NCBI RefSeq assembly: GCF_000153205.1
Contig: NZ_CH672427.1
Span: 1,900,541 to 1,964,540 of the forward strand
Length of the DNA: 64,000 nucleotides
DNA from: Nitrococcus mobilis Nb-231
Lineage (GTDB): Bacteria; Pseudomonadota; Gammaproteobacteria; Nitrococcales; Nitrococcaceae
Direction of reading: 5' to 3'
Part shown: piece after piece, positions 12,521-56,279 of the stretch
How the letters are laid out: every line of letters begins with the position of its first letter
Numbering within the stretch: the stretch's first letter is position 1
Made by a program: the position numbers and the translations under genes
The notes under the pieces: generated by a model
What the model was told of the DNA's origin: nothing
The model's input: only the letters and a program-made list of their open reading frames with translations
Databases searched by the model: none

Positions 12521-13159
12521 TCATGCCGAGGCATGCGCCGTTTTCCAGCCGGCTTCCATGGGAGGTTTGTATAGCCCGTAGCGCTCATACAGGTCTCGGC
12601 GCGGGAATTTGACCAGCCCCGCCATTCGATTCCTGACTTTGTAGCGCTTCCGCAAGTGGGTACGCAGCCGTTCTTCCGCGTGGTATCTGACCTTGCTCAT
12701 CCTGTCGGAGGAGTTCCGGTAGTGGAAGTAGTTCGCCCAGCCTCTCAGGCTGCGGTTCACGTTCGCCACCACGTCCCCCAGCGGAATGCAGGTCAGCTCC
12801 CGTTTTGTCAGTTCCGTCAGTTGCACCGTAATCTTCTTCACGGCCTTGTCCGACGGACGGACGTTCGGATACGGTTTGCCCGACTTCGCCCCCCGACTCA
12901 TCTGGATCGTGAGACCCAGGAAGTCGAAGCTCGCTTCGTTGGCGTCCACGATGTGGGTCTTAGCCTCGTTGAGGCTGAGGTCCAGCCGTTCCAGTACGTG
13001 GCGCACCACCTTCAGCGGTTCTTCCACACCCTTCTTGCACAGCACCACGAAATCGTCCGCATAGCGGACGAGGTGCGCACCTAGTTTCTCGCGCAGGCGA
13101 TGCCGTTGCCACAGCCGGTCCAGGATATGCAGGTAGGCGTTGGCCAGCAGCGGCGTTTT
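12521..13159 (-). pseudogene. Group II intron reverse transcriptase/maturase, C-terminal half
   Basis: From the element border it reads KTPLLANAYLHILDRLWQ, then the catalytic RT motif VRYADDFVVLC, the LSLNEAKTHIV and FDFLGLTIQ motifs, and the maturase domain ending in GIIM-type RSLRGWANYFHYRNSS. It has no own start upstream of 13048, because the N-terminal half lies beyond the inserted element at 15402-16098. The YADD aspartates are intact. Split by insertion, the enzyme should be inactive unless the element is excised. Confidence 0.85.
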
Positions 13160-14817
13160 GACACCCTGAACGCAAAAGGTAACTTTGGTCGGGGATCGTC
13201 ACATTGCCATTGGAGGGTGGCGGTTGGGTGCTGGCCGAAGGCGTAGTTGGTTGCGCCGGGATCGAGTGGCGGATGGTGATAGTATCATCATCAACCAAGA
13301 CCTCCTTAACCAGCAAGCGGACGATTCTCTGGCGGTCACTGATTTCCAAAGTCTCTGCCGATTCCCGCAGTCGCTGGAGGAAAGCGGTCAATGTTTCGGC
13401 CAAACGCAGGAACGACATGCGGTCGGCGGCCTGACTGAAGATTGCCTGCAGCTCGGATTTCAATCCCTGTTCGCGGGCCCGCAGTTCGGGCATGCGGCCT
13501 CGCAGTTCGTCCAAAGACACGAGGTCTTCCTGGTAGGCGGTCACCAGGCGGTCCATGCTTTTGCTCAGGCGCGTGAGGTCGCGTTCGACAGCGTCCTGGC
13601 GTTTCTTCGTCGGTTCACTCGCACGGGCCGCATCCAGGCGGCGGTCAAGCTCGGCGTTGATGAGCCCCGGATCGGCGATCAGCCGCATCACCTCCTGCCA
13701 CACGATGTGGTCGAGCAGGTCCTGGCGGATCGGGCGACTGTCGCACACGGATCCGCCGAGATGACGCCAGCCATCCGAACCCAGGCAGCGGTAATAGTGG
13801 ATTTTGCGTGCACTCGTGCGGGTCGACGCGCGGTAGAGCGCGTAGCCGCATTTGCGGCACGAGACCAAGCCCTGCACAAGGCTGGGCTCGATGGTCCGGC
13901 GCGGTGCGAAACGCTTGTTGTCGGCCAAGCGCTCGGCCGCCAAAGCGAAGGTTTCCTCGCTGACAAGGGCGGGGACCGGCACTTCGATCCATTCCTCGCG
14001 CGGCCGCTCATGTGCGCTGGTCTTCACCATGGACCGACCGACCCGACAGACGGAATGGCTTGGTCACCTTTTGCCTCGGCCCGACCTGTGTCTTGTTGAA
14101 GCAGGCGGTGCCCTTATAGGCGGGATTGCGCAACATCCCCCACACGACCGAACGCTCCCAACGGGTCACTCGCCGGCGAGTCGGAGGGCCCATCTCCCGC
14201 AACAGCCGGGCGATGGCGCCCATGCTCACACCGTCTACGGTGTATTTCTCACACACCAGCCGCACGACTGCCGCCTCGGCGGCATCCATCTCCTAACGCG
14301 CCAGCGTTTCGGGCATCTTGCGAATGTAGCGATAGCCGTAGGGCGCCCCGCCGAGCACGGAGATCTCGCCCGATTTGGCGCGCTGACGCTTGCCACGGCG
14401 GGAGCGTTCGAGAATCTGGGCGCGTTCGTACTCGGCGATCATCCCTTGGAATTGCAGCATGAGCTGATCTTCGGGCGTGGCGGAATGCGGCGCCTTGATG
14501 AAGATGGCTTCGACACCATGGCGGGCGAACTCTTCGGTCAGCAGAACCTGATAGGCATACTTTCTGCTCAGCCGATCCGGCGAGTGGATGAGCACTGCTT
14601 GGATTTGGCCCTCGGCCGCGAGGTCGCGCAGCCGCTCCAAGCCGGGCCGCAGCAGGCTGGCGCCGCTGAAACCTTCGTCCTCGATTATCCATTCATCGGG
14701 TACGGTGAACCCCTGCTCGCGGGCGAACTCGATCAATGCCGCGGTTTGGCTGGCGATCGTGTTCGCTCCCTTCTGTTGGTCGGAGGATACCCGGGCATAA
14801 ATCGCGGCGATCTTCAT
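13160..14817 (-). pseudogene. Large serine recombinase, copy 1 (nonsense codon and 2-bp deletion)
   Basis: The N-terminal resolvase domain starts MKIAAIYARVSSDQQKGA, with the catalytic Ser in YARVSS and Arg in SPDRLSRKYAYQ. A stop at 14293 follows METLAR where copy 2 reads ARYEIDAAEA. A 2-bp deletion near 14027 shifts the frame where copy 2 reads SVHGEKTSAHERP. The rest has the Recombinase domain, a zinc ribbon (CRKCGYALY ... YYRCLGSD) and a coiled coil. The last frame has no stop inside the element and continues through the terminal repeat (SYLLRSGCQ) into the intron, ending at 12960. The protein would normally be about 560 residues. Confidence 0.85.
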
Positions 14818-14971
14818 CGCTCCCCTCCCTTACGCACGGTCCCACACCGGCGACACGGACCCGCTCCGGTACCAAAATCCCATAGACCTGTTCCAGTTTG
14901 ACGGCGAGGAGACGGTCAAACGCATGCTCGAGACGGACGCTGCGATCACTGGCGCCGCGCCGGTCAGCCAT
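14693..14971 (-). CDS. Small ORF between the RHH gene and the recombinase (copy 1)
   Basis: The ATG at 14971 overlaps the 3' end of the upstream RHH gene by 8 bp, the arrangement of a coupled operon. The first ~50 residues (MADRRGASDRSVRLEHAFDR, then LLAVKLEQVYGILVPERVR) lie ahead of the recombinase start at 14817. The remainder overlaps the recombinase in another frame and may be fortuitous. Present identically in copy 2. Family and function are unknown. Confidence 0.5.
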   Translation of the reverse strand: MADRRGASDRSVRLEHAFDRLLAVKLEQVYGILVPERVRVAGVGPCVREGSDEDRRDLCPGILRPTEGSEHDRQPNRGIDRVRPRAGVHRTR

Positions 14972-15293
14972 TGCCGCCGGCTTCGTCGAGAAACGCGCGC
15001 AGCGCCCGACTGACCATGTCGCTGATCGTCGTCTCCTCGGCCGCAGCCCGCGTTCGAATCGCGTCGACCAAACTGGGCGGAAGCTTGAACGTCACGGCCG
15101 TCGTTGGCTCGGTCACTGGCACCGGCCGGCCGATTGCCTGGGCCGCCTCGATGTAGCGATAGGCCTGACGTCGGGACAGCGTGAATTGGCGCGACAACAA
15201 CACGGCAGCCTCCGCCACCTTCAGCCCACGCGCGAGCAACCCATAGGCCGCATTGAGACGTTGCGCCTTCTGCGTATCGGTCGATCGCGACAT
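14964..15293 (-). CDS. Ribbon-helix-helix DNA-binding protein of the element (copy 1)
   Basis: The 109-residue product has two parts. The first is an N-terminal helix-turn-helix-like region (RLNAAYGLLARGLKVAEAA then LSRRQAYRYIEAAQ). The second is a C-terminal CopG/ribbon-helix-helix domain (TAVTFKLPPSLVDAIRTRAA then TTISDMVSRALRAFLDEA). It is the first gene of the element, so a regulator of recombinase expression or an accessory end-binding factor is plausible. An AGGAGG motif lies about 17 bp upstream; an overlapping ATG at 15300 is in a different frame. Confidence 0.75.
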   Translation of the reverse strand: MSRSTDTQKAQRLNAAYGLLARGLKVAEAAVLLSRQFTLSRRQAYRYIEAAQAIGRPVPVTEPTTAVTFKLPPSLVDAIRTRAAAEETTISDMVSRALRAFLDEAGGNG

Positions 15294-15401
15294 ATGACAT
15301 ACGTATATTACCTCCTGAGACGCAAATCAAGCACAGAACGGGAACGGTCGAGCGGGATTGTCCGATCGAAGCCGAAGTTACCCTTTGCGTTCAGGGCGTG
15401 C

Positions 15402-16098
15402 TAACGCCGCCTTGCGGCGTCCCTCGGCTGCTACCTTGGCCGCCACCTACCGCCTTACGGGTTCCGCTTTCATCTTCGCCGATGACCGGAGCTTTGAGCC
15501 ATTGCTTGATCAGGGCGAGAATGCCCCCATCGACAATGCGCTCGGCCACTACGACCAACAACTTGGCGTGCGGGATGCTGTCAAAACATCTCGACAGGTC
15601 GGCATCGATGACTTGAGTGTGGCCGGCCCAAAGCGTATTGGCGATGTCGTCCACGGCATCGTGGGCCGATTTCCTGGGCCGGAATCCGTACGAGTTCGGA
15701 CAGAAGCCGGCTTCGAAGATCGGTTCGATGACGAGTTTCACCGCCATCTGCACCACCCGGTCGCGGATCGTCGGTATCCCCAGCGGCCGTAGACTGCCGT
15801 CCGCCTTGGGGATCATCACGCGCCGTACCGGTTGGGCTCGGTAGTTCTTCGCTTGCAGATCACGGGCCAATTCCCGCAATAGCCTGTCTACCCCTTCTCC
15901 GTGCTCGATGGCCCCGAAGCCGATCCCGTCGATGCCGGGACTGCCTCCGTTGGACCGGACAAGTCGCCAGGCATGACTGAGGATGTCTTCCCGGCTGACT
16001 TTGTCGTAAAGCGCATAGAAACGGTAGGCCGGTTCTCGCTTGGCCTTGGCATAGAGCTTCCTCTGGAGCGTCCTGATCGTAGCCGGGGTGGCTAGCAT
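15402..16098 (-). pseudogene. Group II intron reverse transcriptase/maturase, N-terminal half
   Basis: The likely start is MLATPATIRTLQRKLYAKAK at 16098. RT motifs 0-4 are visible: PGIDGIGFGAI, RRVMIPKADGSLRPLGIPT, FCPNSYGFRPRKSAHDAV, VIDADLSRCFDSIPH (motif A with its Asp) and GTPQGGV, where the frame meets the inserted element. Together with the C-terminal half at 12521-13159 it would make an enzyme of about 450 residues, the normal length. Confidence 0.85.
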
Positions 16099-16590
16099 TT
16101 CCGCAATCCCCTGATCCTCCGCCCTTCGGTTGCATGAACAAAGCAGGGTCCCTTCCCTCGGCGGGGGTTGTGTTGTCCCTTCGCCTCGAACGGTACTTCG
16201 AACCCCTCCGATTTCCATTTCGGGCCGAAGCGCTTTCGTTTCCTTATACGCATCGGTCGGTGGCCTCCCCACCCCCCGAAATGGATCTCCAGCACTGGAC
16301 AGCAAATCTTCGAGAACATGCCGACCCTGCTACCCCCGGAGTCGATGGCCGCTACTTCCGTTGTTCCGGCGTCCATCCAGCGGCCTTCCCCTTCTGTCCA
16401 CAGGGTCGGCTTCTCCAGTTCGTTTACGAGGCTACTCATGGGTTCACTTGCGTTACGGCCTGCTCTCTTGCTGTGCGGAAACTTACGACCCCGCGTTACC
16501 GCGACGCCGCTTCCTCATGCTACCGGGGCGTACGGACAACTCCCCGGACGGGACTTTAACCCGCTAGACTTACTGTTGTTACTGCGTACG

Positions 16591-21738: not shown

Positions 21739-21815
<77 letters not shown>

Positions 21816-53297: not shown

Positions 53298-53593
53298 AAA
53301 ACGAACCTCTATCGTAGCGGCGCTCGACTAATAAAAGCATAAACACCGATTTTGCTCGGGTCGATCCAGTCTCCGACAGACGCTGAGTTCACTCGCCTCC
53401 CCTAAAGAAGCTTTGATTTAGTCCGCTCATGCTCCGGGCTATTCGTCAAACTTACGGATCAGCATGAGCAGACACAAAATTACAGAACATCACAATGTCG
53501 CCATCGAGCGGCCTGTGCAAGCAAAGGGTGCAATATGGCGACAGGGTCGCGTACCCAATTTGAAACGAAACTTGACCCTCACATTGGTGCTTT

Positions 53594-55248
53594 GACACCC
53601 TGAACGCAAAAGGTAACTTTGGTCGGGGATCGTCACATTGCCATTGGAGGGTGGCGGTTGGGTGCTGGCCGAAGGCGTAGTTGGTTGCGCCGGGATCGAG
53701 TGGCGGATGGTGATAGTATCATCATCAACCAAGACCTCCTTAACCAGCAAGCGGACGATTCTCTGGCGGTCACTGATTTCCAAAGTCTCTGCCGATTCCC
53801 GCAGTCGCTGGAGGAAAGCGGTCAATGTTTCGGCCAAACGCAGGAACGACATGCGGTCGGCGGCCTGACTGAAGATTGCCTGCAGCTCGGATTTCAATCC
53901 CTGTTCGCGGGCCCGCAGTTCGGGCATGCGGCCTCGCAGTTCGTCCAAAGACACGAGGTCTTCCTGGTAGGCGGTCACCAGGCGGTCCATGCTTTTGCTC
54001 AGGCGCGTGAGGTCGCGTTCGACAGCGTCCTGGCGTTTCTTCGTCGGTTCACTCGCACGGGCCGCATCCAGGCGGCGGTCAAGCTCGGCGTTGATGAGCC
54101 CCGGATCGGCGATCAGCCGCATCACCTCCTGCCACACGATGTGGTCGAGCAGGTCCTGGCGGATCGGGCGACTGTCGCACACGGATCCGCCGAGATGACG
54201 CCAGCCATCCGAACCCAGGCAGCGGTAATAGTGGATTTTGCGTGCACTCGTGCGGGTCGACGCGCGGTAGAGCGCGTAGCCGCATTTGCGGCACGAGACC
54301 AAGCCCTGCACAAGGCTGGGCTCGATGGTCCGGCGCGGTGCGAAACGCTTGTTGTCGGCCAAGCGCTCGGCCGCCAAAGCGAAGGTTTCCTCGCTGACAA
54401 GGGCGGGGACCGGCACTTCGATCCATTCCTCGCGCGGCCGCTCATGTGCGCTGGTCTTTTCACCATGGACCGACCGACCCGACAGACGGAATGGCTTGGT
54501 CACCTTTTGCCTCGGCCCGACCTGTGTCTTGTTGAAGCAGGCGGTGCCCTTATAGGCGGGATTGCGCAACATCCCCCACACGACCGAACGCTCCCAACGG
54601 GTCACTCGCCGGCGTGTCGGAGGGCCCATCTCCCGCAACAGCCGGGCGATGGCGCCGATGCTCAGACCGTCGACGGTGTATTTCTCAAACACCAGCCGCA
54701 CGACTGCCGCCTCGGCGGCATCGATCTCGTAACGCGCCGGCGTTTCGGGCATCTTGCGAATGTAGCGATAGCCGTAGGGCGCCCCGCCAAGCACAGAGAT
54801 CTCGCCCGATTTGGCGCGGTGACGCTTGCCACGGCGGGAGCGTTCGAGAATCTGGGCGCGTTCGTACTCGGCGATCATCCCTTGGAATTGCAGCATGAGC
54901 TGATCTTCGGGCGTGGCGGAATGCGGCGCCTTGATGAAGATGGCTTCGACACCATGCGGCGACTCTCGTCAGCAGAACCTGATAGGCATACTTTCTGCTC
55001 AGCCGATCCGGCGAGTGGATGAGCACTGCTTGGATTTGGCCCTCGGCCGCGAGGTCGCGCAGCCGCTCCAAGCCGGGCCGCAGCAGGCTGGCGCCGCTGA
55101 AACCTTCGTCCTCGATTATCCATTCATCGGGTACGGTGAACCCCTGCTCGCGGGCGAACTCGATCAATGCCGCGGTTTGGCTGGCGATCGTGTTCGCTCC
55201 CTTCTGTTGGTCGGAGGATACCCGGGCATAAATCGCGGCGATCTTCAT
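53594..55248 (-). pseudogene. Large serine recombinase, copy 2 (5-bp deletion)
   Basis: The start is identical to copy 1 (MKIAAIYARVSS). Near 54955 five bases are missing relative to copy 1, which shifts the frame after RKYAYQVLLT. From about 54896 downstream the frame is intact (MLQFQGMIAEYERAQILERS, ARYEIDAAEAAVVRLVFEKY, the zinc ribbon and coiled coil), repairing the two lesions seen in copy 1. The frame leaves the element through the terminal repeat and stops outside, at 53490. Confidence 0.85.
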
Positions 55249-55402
55249 CGCTCCCCTCCCTTACGCACGGTCCCACACCGGCGACACGGACCCGCTCCGG
55301 TACCAAAATCCCATAGACCTGTTCCAGTTTGACGGCGAGGAGACGGTCAAACGCATGCTCGAGACGGACGCTGCGATCACTGGCGCCGCGCCGGTCAGCC
55401 AT
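55124..55402 (-). CDS. Small ORF between the RHH gene and the recombinase (copy 2)
   Basis: Same sequence and overlap arrangement as 14693-14971. No family recognised; only the first ~50 residues precede the recombinase start. Confidence 0.45.
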   Translation of the reverse strand: MADRRGASDRSVRLEHAFDRLLAVKLEQVYGILVPERVRVAGVGPCVREGSDEDRRDLCPGILRPTEGSEHDRQPNRGIDRVRPRAGVHRTR

Positions 55403-55724
55403 TGCCGCCGGCTTCGTCGAGAAACGCGCGCAGCGCCCGACTCACCATGTCGCTGATCGTCGTCTCCTCGGCCGCAGCCCGCGTTCGAATCGCGTCGACC
55501 AAACTGGGCGGAAGCTTGAACGTCACGGCCGTCGTTGGCTCGGTCACTGGCACCGGCCGGCCGATTGCCTGGGCCGCCTCGATGTAGCGATAGGCCTGAC
55601 GTCGGGACAGCGTGAATTGGCGCGACAACAACACGGCAGCCTCCGCCACCTTCAGCCCACGCGCGAGCAACCCATAGGCCGCATTGAGACGTTGCGCCTT
55701 CTGCGTATCGGTCGATCGCGACAT
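55395..55724 (-). CDS. Ribbon-helix-helix DNA-binding protein of the element (copy 2)
   Basis: The 109-residue protein is identical to the one at 14964-15293 as far as I can read it. The single base difference noted between the DNA copies here (position 55443, C for G) is silent. A role in recombinase control is inferred from position only. Confidence 0.75.
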   Translation of the reverse strand: MSRSTDTQKAQRLNAAYGLLARGLKVAEAAVLLSRQFTLSRRQAYRYIEAAQAIGRPVPVTEPTTAVTFKLPPSLVDAIRTRAAAEETTISDMVSRALRAFLDEAGGNG

Positions 55725-55857
55725 ATGACATACGTATATTACCTCCTGAGACGCAAATCAAGCACAGAACGGGAACGGTCGAGCGGGATTGTCCGATCGA
55801 AGCCGAAGTTACCCTTTGCGTTCAGGGCGTGCTGCCGCCTCCCCTTGCAAGCGTTGG

Positions 55858-56088
55858 TTAGGCGATTTTCTCAGCCACGTTCCTCCCAGCAGTAGGAGGT
55901 GGCAGAGGTTTGCCTTCCTGCTTCATAAGCTCAATCCATTCATCAACGATATTACAAAGCTCTGCGTAGACTTGCGCTTCATCGTCGCCATGACAACATG
56001 GGCCGATGACGCCTGGACACTGGCCAACGAAGCTTTCGTCTTCGTCGGACCATTCCACAATCTTGATATACCGAGCACTTTCTTTCAT
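55858..56088 (-). CDS. hicB: HicB-family antitoxin, short form
   Basis: The 76-residue product has the HicB-type partial RNase H fold: YIKIVEWSDEDESFVGQCPG and GDDEAQVYAELCNIVDEWIE. It stops without the C-terminal helix-turn-helix or ribbon-helix-helix found in longer HicB proteins. It overlaps hicA by 4 bp and is expected to neutralise HicA. Its stop codon is 25 bp from the end of the serine-recombinase element. With no own DNA-binding domain visible, autoregulation may need another factor. Confidence 0.8.
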   Translation of the reverse strand: MKESARYIKIVEWSDEDESFVGQCPGVIGPCCHGDDEAQVYAELCNIVDEWIELMKQEGKPLPPPTAGRNVAEKIA

Positions 56089-56279
56089 TGCTGTGACTCT
56101 TGAATCCTTCGTCTCACCTCACGTTCTCGATATGGTTTGGCATTTGCGCCAAGTTTTCCAAACAGAGTAACGCGCATACCTTTGGGATGCTCAAAGCTTC
56201 TATGACTTCCCTTGCCACCTCGATTGATGAAGCCCGCTCTCTTCAGATCCCGGATCAGTTCGCTTATCTTCCGAGGCAT
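56085..56279 (-). CDS. hicA: HicA-family mRNA interferase toxin
   Basis: The 64-residue dsRBD-like protein MPRKISELIRDLKRAGFINR continues GGKGSHRSFEHPKGMRVTLF, with the catalytic His in GKGSHRSF. HicA cleaves mRNA when unbound by HicB. Gene order is toxin first, then antitoxin, with coupled translation. The upstream 115 bp form a nested inverted repeat. Confidence 0.88.
   Translation of the reverse strand: MPRKISELIRDLKRAGFINRGGKGSHRSFEHPKGMRVTLFGKLGANAKPYREREVRRRIQESQQ

Follow-up and report, generated by a model that had tools for sequence, protein, structure and literature searches.

A compact element that lies twice within a 64,000-nucleotide stretch of the Nitrococcus mobilis genome (the whole stretch that was analysed, hereafter the window) raises the question of what kind of mobile DNA it is, where it inserts and how its recombinase would carry it there. 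The earlier note on this DNA had described a 2.24-kb serine-recombinase element with matching inverted ends, and such an element is real: the two window copies are identical in 2229 of 2248 aligned columns, and its ends are inverted with one mismatch. What that reading lacked were the reverse transcriptase (RT) gene as target, the probable attP nature of the ends, the 2-bp core, the stopless gene of the large serine recombinase (LSR) and the broken LSRs of the window copies (Table 1). The flanks of copy 1 are the two halves of one group II intron RT gene, and the 5′ and 3′ RNA domains of that intron are both present. The window copies, whose recombinases are broken, belong to a real, mobile, cargo-free LSR element family. 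We consider it likely that this family specialises in mobile DNA of other kinds, chiefly group II introns, and that it moves by way of a circle and integrates over unequal cores.

Table 1. Features of the two element copies and of the interrupted intron in the window
Feature	Position	Strand	Remarks
Group II intron RNA RF00029	12438..12511	-	
RT gene, 3′ part with maturase domain	12521..13157	-	GIIM; part of RVT_1
Core TT, copy 1, low-coordinate side	13158..13159	.	position set by uninterrupted homologues of other copies
Element copy 1 (L001)	13160..15400	- (recombinase strand)	2,241 bp; basis: ends and flanks
Putative attP half-site (inverted end), copy 1	13160..13185	.	
LSR gene, copy 1	13160..14817	-	broken by a stop and a 2-nt deletion; lacks a terminal stop within the element
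ORF2, copy 1	14693..14971	-	92 aa; overlaps RHH end and LSR start; N-terminal part conserved in relatives
RHH (CopG-like) gene, copy 1	14964..15293	-	109 aa; Pfam RHH_1 21.1 bits, cut-off 20.5
Left-end segment, copy 1	15308..15400	-	LSR C-terminal tail and stop, in frame only in the predicted circle
Putative attP half-site (inverted end), copy 1	15375..15400	.	
Core CT, copy 1, high-coordinate side	15401..15402	.	unlike TT of the other side
RT gene, 5′ part, target of copy 1	15403..16305	-	RVT_1
Group II intron RNA D1-D4 (RF02005)	16323..16557	-	
Core TT, copy 2	53592..53593	.	
Element copy 2 (L006)	53594..55831	-	2,238 bp; basis: copy alignment, ends
LSR gene, copy 2	53594..55248	-	broken by a substitution cluster with a 5-nt deletion
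ORF2, copy 2	55124..55402	-	
RHH gene, copy 2	55395..55724	-	
Left-end tail segment, copy 2	55739..55831	-	
Core CT, copy 2	55832..55833	.	

Genes, copies and relatives of the element

Gene calls and domain matches bear out the layout of RHH gene, small ORF and recombinase that had been read from the window; in the recombinase sense the order is RHH, then ORF2, which overlaps both neighbours, and then the LSR gene with 552 codons inside the element. The LSR carries the Resolvase (PF00239), Recombinase (PF07508) and zinc ribbon (PF13408) domains, all above their cut-offs, and matches the PHROG 95 integrase. It is a large serine recombinase by this domain set, and catalysis on att sites is predicted for it. 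DUF4368 gave no match in the LSR at E 0.1. The RHH protein matches Pfam narrowly above the cut-off, and ORF2 has no family match in Pfam, NCBIfam or PHROGs; its N-terminal part can be aligned in 11 hand-chosen relatives with the pattern F-D-R....L..VY.ILVP, and weakly in L052 and L044, the latter a relative without a recognisable RHH. The annotated records examined carry the label “recombinase family protein” or leave the gene unannotated, and among viral contigs no LSR relatives were found.

The element had been described as present twice, which is true of the window only, because the 3.62-Mb genome holds six full copies, one copy ended by an N run and one 76-bp remnant. The 22-bp end pattern, searched across the whole genome at up to three mismatches, gave 14 matches (13 exact and one with two mismatches); the reversed-pattern control gave none at the same threshold. 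The copies in this genome are about 99% alike, two of them (L002 and L003) being identical across 2,235 bp. The LSR frame is open from its start in L002, L003 and L005 and is broken, as assembled, in L001 (copy 1), L004 and L006 (copy 2); unbroken LSRs are hence present in the genome outside the window. The autonomous mobility that the earlier note had proposed has to be divided accordingly: mobility is well supported by near-identical copies at several sites and by uninterrupted homologues of six target sites, and the window copies themselves are probably not autonomous, since their LSRs are both broken. A search of four other genomes of the genus returned one 34-base match, in one genome. 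The 76-bp internal remnant (L008) is an older relic of the family, as is a solitary diverged element end (L022, G000:C1:1261821; 55 bp at 85%).

Relatives were gathered by similarity to the LSR or to the element, not by target, and came from rhizobia, other Proteobacteria, a Syntrophobacteraceae MAG and actinobacterial plasmids. We tabulated 36 loci, 32 of them with a readable end; sequence pairs and copies in the counts below are not independent. Plasmid records of 53% identity or more numbered 14 (H21-H34); nine of them were sampled, leaving out H26 and H27 (apparent near-copies of sampled ones), H31, H32 and H34, and nine plasmid matches of lower identity were taken in. L041, which retains no LSR, was found via its RHH end; L109-L111 are identical to one another, and G849, which shares its coordinates with G461, was counted once. 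Relatives with both ends measure 2,173-2,249 bp in 19 of 21 cases (the shorter ones are L034 with 1,585 bp and L039 with 2,028 bp), so that no larger constant cargo is seen, and the picture of a small LSR element that has matching ends and no cargo holds. Prevalence is low: at strict E-values, matches occur in 4/369 genomes of the class (own genome included), 2/398 of the phylum (own genome included) and 2/397 of a rhizobial order (its centre included). Among the titles and abstract beginnings listed from the open-licence PMC literature none describes such elements, and neither do the accessible portions of PMC9203015 and PMC4853749.

Borders and core dinucleotides

The borders and the core dinucleotide, which the earlier note had left to alignment, were fixed with uninterrupted homologues of the target sites. 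When the flanks of a copy are joined and compared with such a homologue, exactly 2 nt are left at the junction in six copies (L003, L036, L037, L028, L035 and L002), and apart from this 2-bp core no target DNA was lost or gained at insertion. The homologues were two same-genus orthologues of a PHA-synthase-like gene (gene name by reading) for L003, uninterrupted RTs for L036, L037, L028 and L035, and an unannotated Cupriavidus stretch for L002; small alignment gaps of about 5 nt (L036), 26 nt (L037) and about 35 nt (L003) lie away from the core. The spans first given for the window copies, 13160-15401 and 53594-55832, were nearly right and are refined to those of Table 1, flanked by 2-bp cores. 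An alternative border at CCC/GGG with a 3- or 4-bp duplication outside it was ruled out, as the uninterrupted homologues place the border 4 bp further out. Searches for empty sites found none for copy 1 and partial matches only for L005.

The element sits between the half-sites GGNNNN and NNNNCC with the 2-bp core in the middle, and G stands at position -6 in 45 and at position -5 in 38 of 49 target half-sites. The terminal inverted repeats are most likely attP half-sites: the 22-bp ends, CCCTGAACGCAAA[A/G]GGTAACTT, inverted over 21/22 bp, form an imperfect palindrome when joined, as expected of attP. The element shares with the LI integrase, as described in the available text of PMC3783163, a half-site about 25 bp long and a centre of 2 bp.

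An LSR integrative element is expected to have identical cores at both junctions, with the core setting the orientation. Across 24 copies, the two junction cores are equal in 7 and different in 17, the difference being a single base in 13 and both bases in 4, a count made without L026 and L027 (two 5′ halves; the right core of L026 is read one base off), without L007, L024, L030, L031, L038 and L041 (one end unreadable) and without L044, L045, L051 and L052 (other end sequences). When offsets from -8 to +8 were scanned, the identity of 7/24 at the chosen place was exceeded only at -6 (17/24) and +6 (19/24), because GG/CC is present in both arms; these two offsets were excluded as the core by the uninterrupted homologues. 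Orientation relative to the RT is the same in 13 copies and opposite in 11 (L026, L027 and L033 are outside this count of 24). In L028, L035 and L037, whose junctions are unequal, the native core matches exactly one of the two; in L002 and L036, whose junctions are equal, it matches both. The orthologue core of L003 agrees with neither junction, having one base in common. Within a genome, AA occurs at one junction or more in five of the six full copies of N. mobilis (the exception being L005, whose right end is another allele), and AT occurs in all three copies of genome G461.

We propose that ligation proceeds despite unequal cores, so that one junction would keep the native dinucleotide, the other would receive the incoming one, and orientation would be free. 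A heteroduplex core, tolerant of mismatch and then replicated, would explain the unequal junctions; L003, whose native core matches neither junction, speaks against this. The coupling sequences of Tn916-type elements are alike in that non-identical junction bases are carried from donor to target via heteroduplex, and differ in that Tn916 has a tyrosine recombinase and a longer overlap.

The cores could instead have become unequal after integration by an orthodox LSR with strict core matching, either by mutation or by homologous recombination that swapped flanks between copies. Such a history would agree with the equal cores that known serine recombinases require in the portions available of PMC11607074 and PMC3783163, the latter allowing efficient exchange only with parallel alignment of the cores and the former recording at most trace recombinants from unequal sites in the enzymes studied, and flank swaps do happen, as in L026 and L027 with their two 5′ RT halves. 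We nevertheless judge it unlikely, since L028, L035, L037 and L003 have unequal cores though both flanks of each align to one uninterrupted gene, which leaves no flank swap there; the copies of N. mobilis, 99% alike, differ in their cores in five of six full copies; and free orientation (13:11) would be unexpected. Ligation over unequal cores stays our preferred account of the junctions.

The recombinase frame and the left-end tail

In 17 of the 25 full-length elements that have both ends, the LSR frame is open from its start to the right end; in the remaining eight the first stop comes at most 189 codons from the start. The frame has no terminal stop at the right end in any of the 25; read backwards from there, it is open for 281-596 codons in 24 and for 57 in L033. 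In a predicted circle with one core, whose junction would read GTTCAGGG-N4-NN-N4-CCCTGAAC, the LSR frame of these 17 runs on past the junction into the left end; this stretch is 32 codons long in 13 of them, 36 in two, and 24 and 20 in one each.

This left-end tail might be non-coding, conserved as att site and as promoter of the RHH operon, with the LSR ending at whatever stop the host supplies; its first part is the terminal repeat, and it lies directly upstream of RHH. That reading, to which we give only a small chance, does not sit well with the pattern of change in the tail outside the repeat, where codons with a single difference are synonymous to non-synonymous as 316:153 in the LSR frame (13 sequences) and as 120:461 and 27:540 in the other frames. 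With 12 sequences, 0.70 of such codons are synonymous in the LSR frame, compared with 0.29 after the columns are shuffled, none of 500 shuffles reaching as high. A test of variable third positions is weaker and to that extent favours the non-coding reading (p 0.18 for 13 sequences; without L040, 0.04, or 0.01 by minimum changes). These tests were made without L026, a sister of L025, and without L033 and L034, which have deletions; the shuffle test also omitted L040. Further against a non-coding tail, 24 of 30 loci have the stop of this frame at codon 30, the 12- and 15-nt length differences in the tails of L048, L049 and L033 keep the frame, and distant relatives have long open tails: 88 codons in L044 (1,897 bp), whose predicted circle of 1,899 nt forms one frame from stop to stop, and 51 and 101 codons in L052 and L051, whose end sequences are different and whose borders were placed by eye. 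The tail therefore shows a coding signature in the frame that the predicted circle would join to the LSR. Translation that runs on from the LSR through attP would account for the tail most simply, and the LSR gene appears to be whole only in the free-circle form of the element.

In the cycle that we envisage, the LSR would excise the element as a circle and thereby rejoin its own gene across attP, and integration would follow by attP x attB. Each integration would remove the natural C-terminus of the LSR and put a chance host-derived peptide in its place, and the exchanged C-terminus could serve as an integration-dependent switch. The RHH protein is probably the repressor of the operon, and ORF2, to guess from its size and place, is a candidate directionality factor. 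Against the circle, sequence searches of the own genome and of viral contigs found no circle or tandem copy. The search for the circle junction in the own genome gave only 2-mismatch matches, the same as the control pattern, and a match in a viral contig was ruled out as a circle junction, being a palindrome in a contig without an LSR.

Group II intron targets and known systems

Three of the seven copies in the own genome (L001, L002 and L005) lie in RT genes, and six of its 11 RVT_1 matches are the halves of the RTs that these copies split. Of the other relatives with a readable end, 23/25 have an RT on every readable side, the exceptions being L033, with an RT on one of two sides, and L048, with none (a DUF4158 gene adjoins it). 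The distant relatives L044, L045, L051 and L052 (36-40% identity) are in RTs too, L045 with one clear side. Within the RTs, in window copy 1 as elsewhere, the element has entered at the codon that separates GG[x] from SP(L)LAN; judged from the sequences, insertion favours the RT motif QGG[x][x]SP(L)LAN, with the core on the variable codon before SP. The target GG and CC occupy, in the RT, the first and second bases of a Gly codon and, on the other side, of a Pro codon, and are immune to synonymous change. Specialisation on RTs is opposed by the four of seven own copies that lie outside them, by L048, by one side of L033 and by the second branch of the LSR tree.

That tree has 37 rows. In its main clade 22 of 23 rows are labelled RT, the own row among those so labelled because three own copies are in RTs; the second branch is mixed. 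The RT label requires four changes on the tree against a shuffled mean of 9.7, with none of 500 shuffles as low. In the second branch inverted ends surround the LSR in six of 11 checked loci (L045, L053, L055, L056, L057 and L104). Mesorhizobium sophorae has three second-branch LSR genes in one genome (L104, L107 and L108); of these, L104 apparently interrupts the part coding for WVVERTFAWL in what we take, from its motif, to be an IS5-like transposase gene, and L108 perhaps lies in another such gene.

Common descent from a single LSR entry into one group II intron, followed by joint spread, might be suspected from the rhizobia that make up most hosts and from some loci that are near-copies, and is highly improbable given Rfam D1-D4 types 2, 3, 4 and 6 among five interrupted introns, insertion in both orientations, three identical copies in three different RTs of genome G461, the existence of uninterrupted close RT relatives and the own copies outside RTs.

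We lean, with little more than even confidence, towards a fuller reading in which the family, made up of minimal elements, is parasitic on other mobile elements via codon-invariant bases in the DNA of a conserved protein motif, its LSR ligates unequal 2-bp cores, and its gene is circularly permuted across attP, so that the full-length enzyme would exist only in the circle and the C-terminus would be swapped for a random host peptide at each integration, a self-editing, integration-dependent switch. If so, a serine recombinase that joins unequal cores would be a naturally occurring enzyme with which to study what licenses ligation, and there would be a small integrase whose target rule is simple (DNA coding for QGG..SP) and whose orientation is free. 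The element would also offer a direct, testable case of integration altering a recombinase’s own C-terminus, and a layer of parasitism in which DNA elements exploit retroelements at codons that those cannot change.

Two features are unorthodox for serine recombinases in an element of otherwise known kind. The LSR has the Resolvase, Recombinase and zinc-ribbon domains of the serine integrases (LI integrase, TP901-1, SprA, phiC31, Bxb1), and its sequence matches in the PDB are TP901-1 integrase, SprA (YokA) and TnpX. Unlike those integrases, the element has unequal cores in 17/24 copies, an LSR gene without a terminal stop, no phage or cargo, and a protein motif of another mobile element as its target. 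The TndX-like multi-targeting LSRs (Tn5397, Cp36) likewise move to several sites and recognise a motif rather than one gene; as far as the accessible text of PMC10083194 goes, DUF4368, absent from the element LSR, occurs in 63% of their clade, and one example has a conserved TT core, whereas the element core is not conserved. Mycobacteriophage BPs offers by analogy a precedent for an attP inside a gene that is shortened on integration, which in the excerpted account of PMC4557955 trims the protein’s C-terminus by 33 residues; the gene there is the repressor, whereas in the element it would be the recombinase itself, its tail replaced by host-derived codons. A catalogued DDE insertion sequence or an IS607-type transposon, suggested by the small size and short inverted repeats and, for IS607, by a serine transposase, is hardly credible for an element that holds RHH, ORF2 and LSR only and has terminal inverted repeats, as IS607 elements have neither these nor target duplications in the part of PMC6188088 available, their enzyme is itself small, and the element LSR scores 40 against the NCBIfam IS607 cut-off of 110.

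Several minor observations concern the surroundings of the copies. L026 and L027 are flanked on both sides by 5′ halves, which come from two different RTs and stand in inverted order, a pattern that would fit recombination between two insertions. Another RT of the own genome (G000:C1:1712875-1714730; L061, L069) is split in the corresponding region of the RVT_1 model (positions 138/138) by about 1.2 kb of DNA without a match to the element, and at L007 (829-1183) group II intron RNA matches lie 316 bases upstream of the element copy, with another stretch between. In the left flank of L004 (G000:C1:3137797-3138009) about 157 bp resemble a MITE or another short repeat, with roughly 12 further occurrences elsewhere in the genome at 94-99% identity. 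In the window, a tRNA gene lies at 21742-21815 on the - strand, and beside copy 2, at 55832-56100, a HicB-like ORF is followed by GCCTAACCAACGCTTGC, which we take to resemble the end of an integron attC site.
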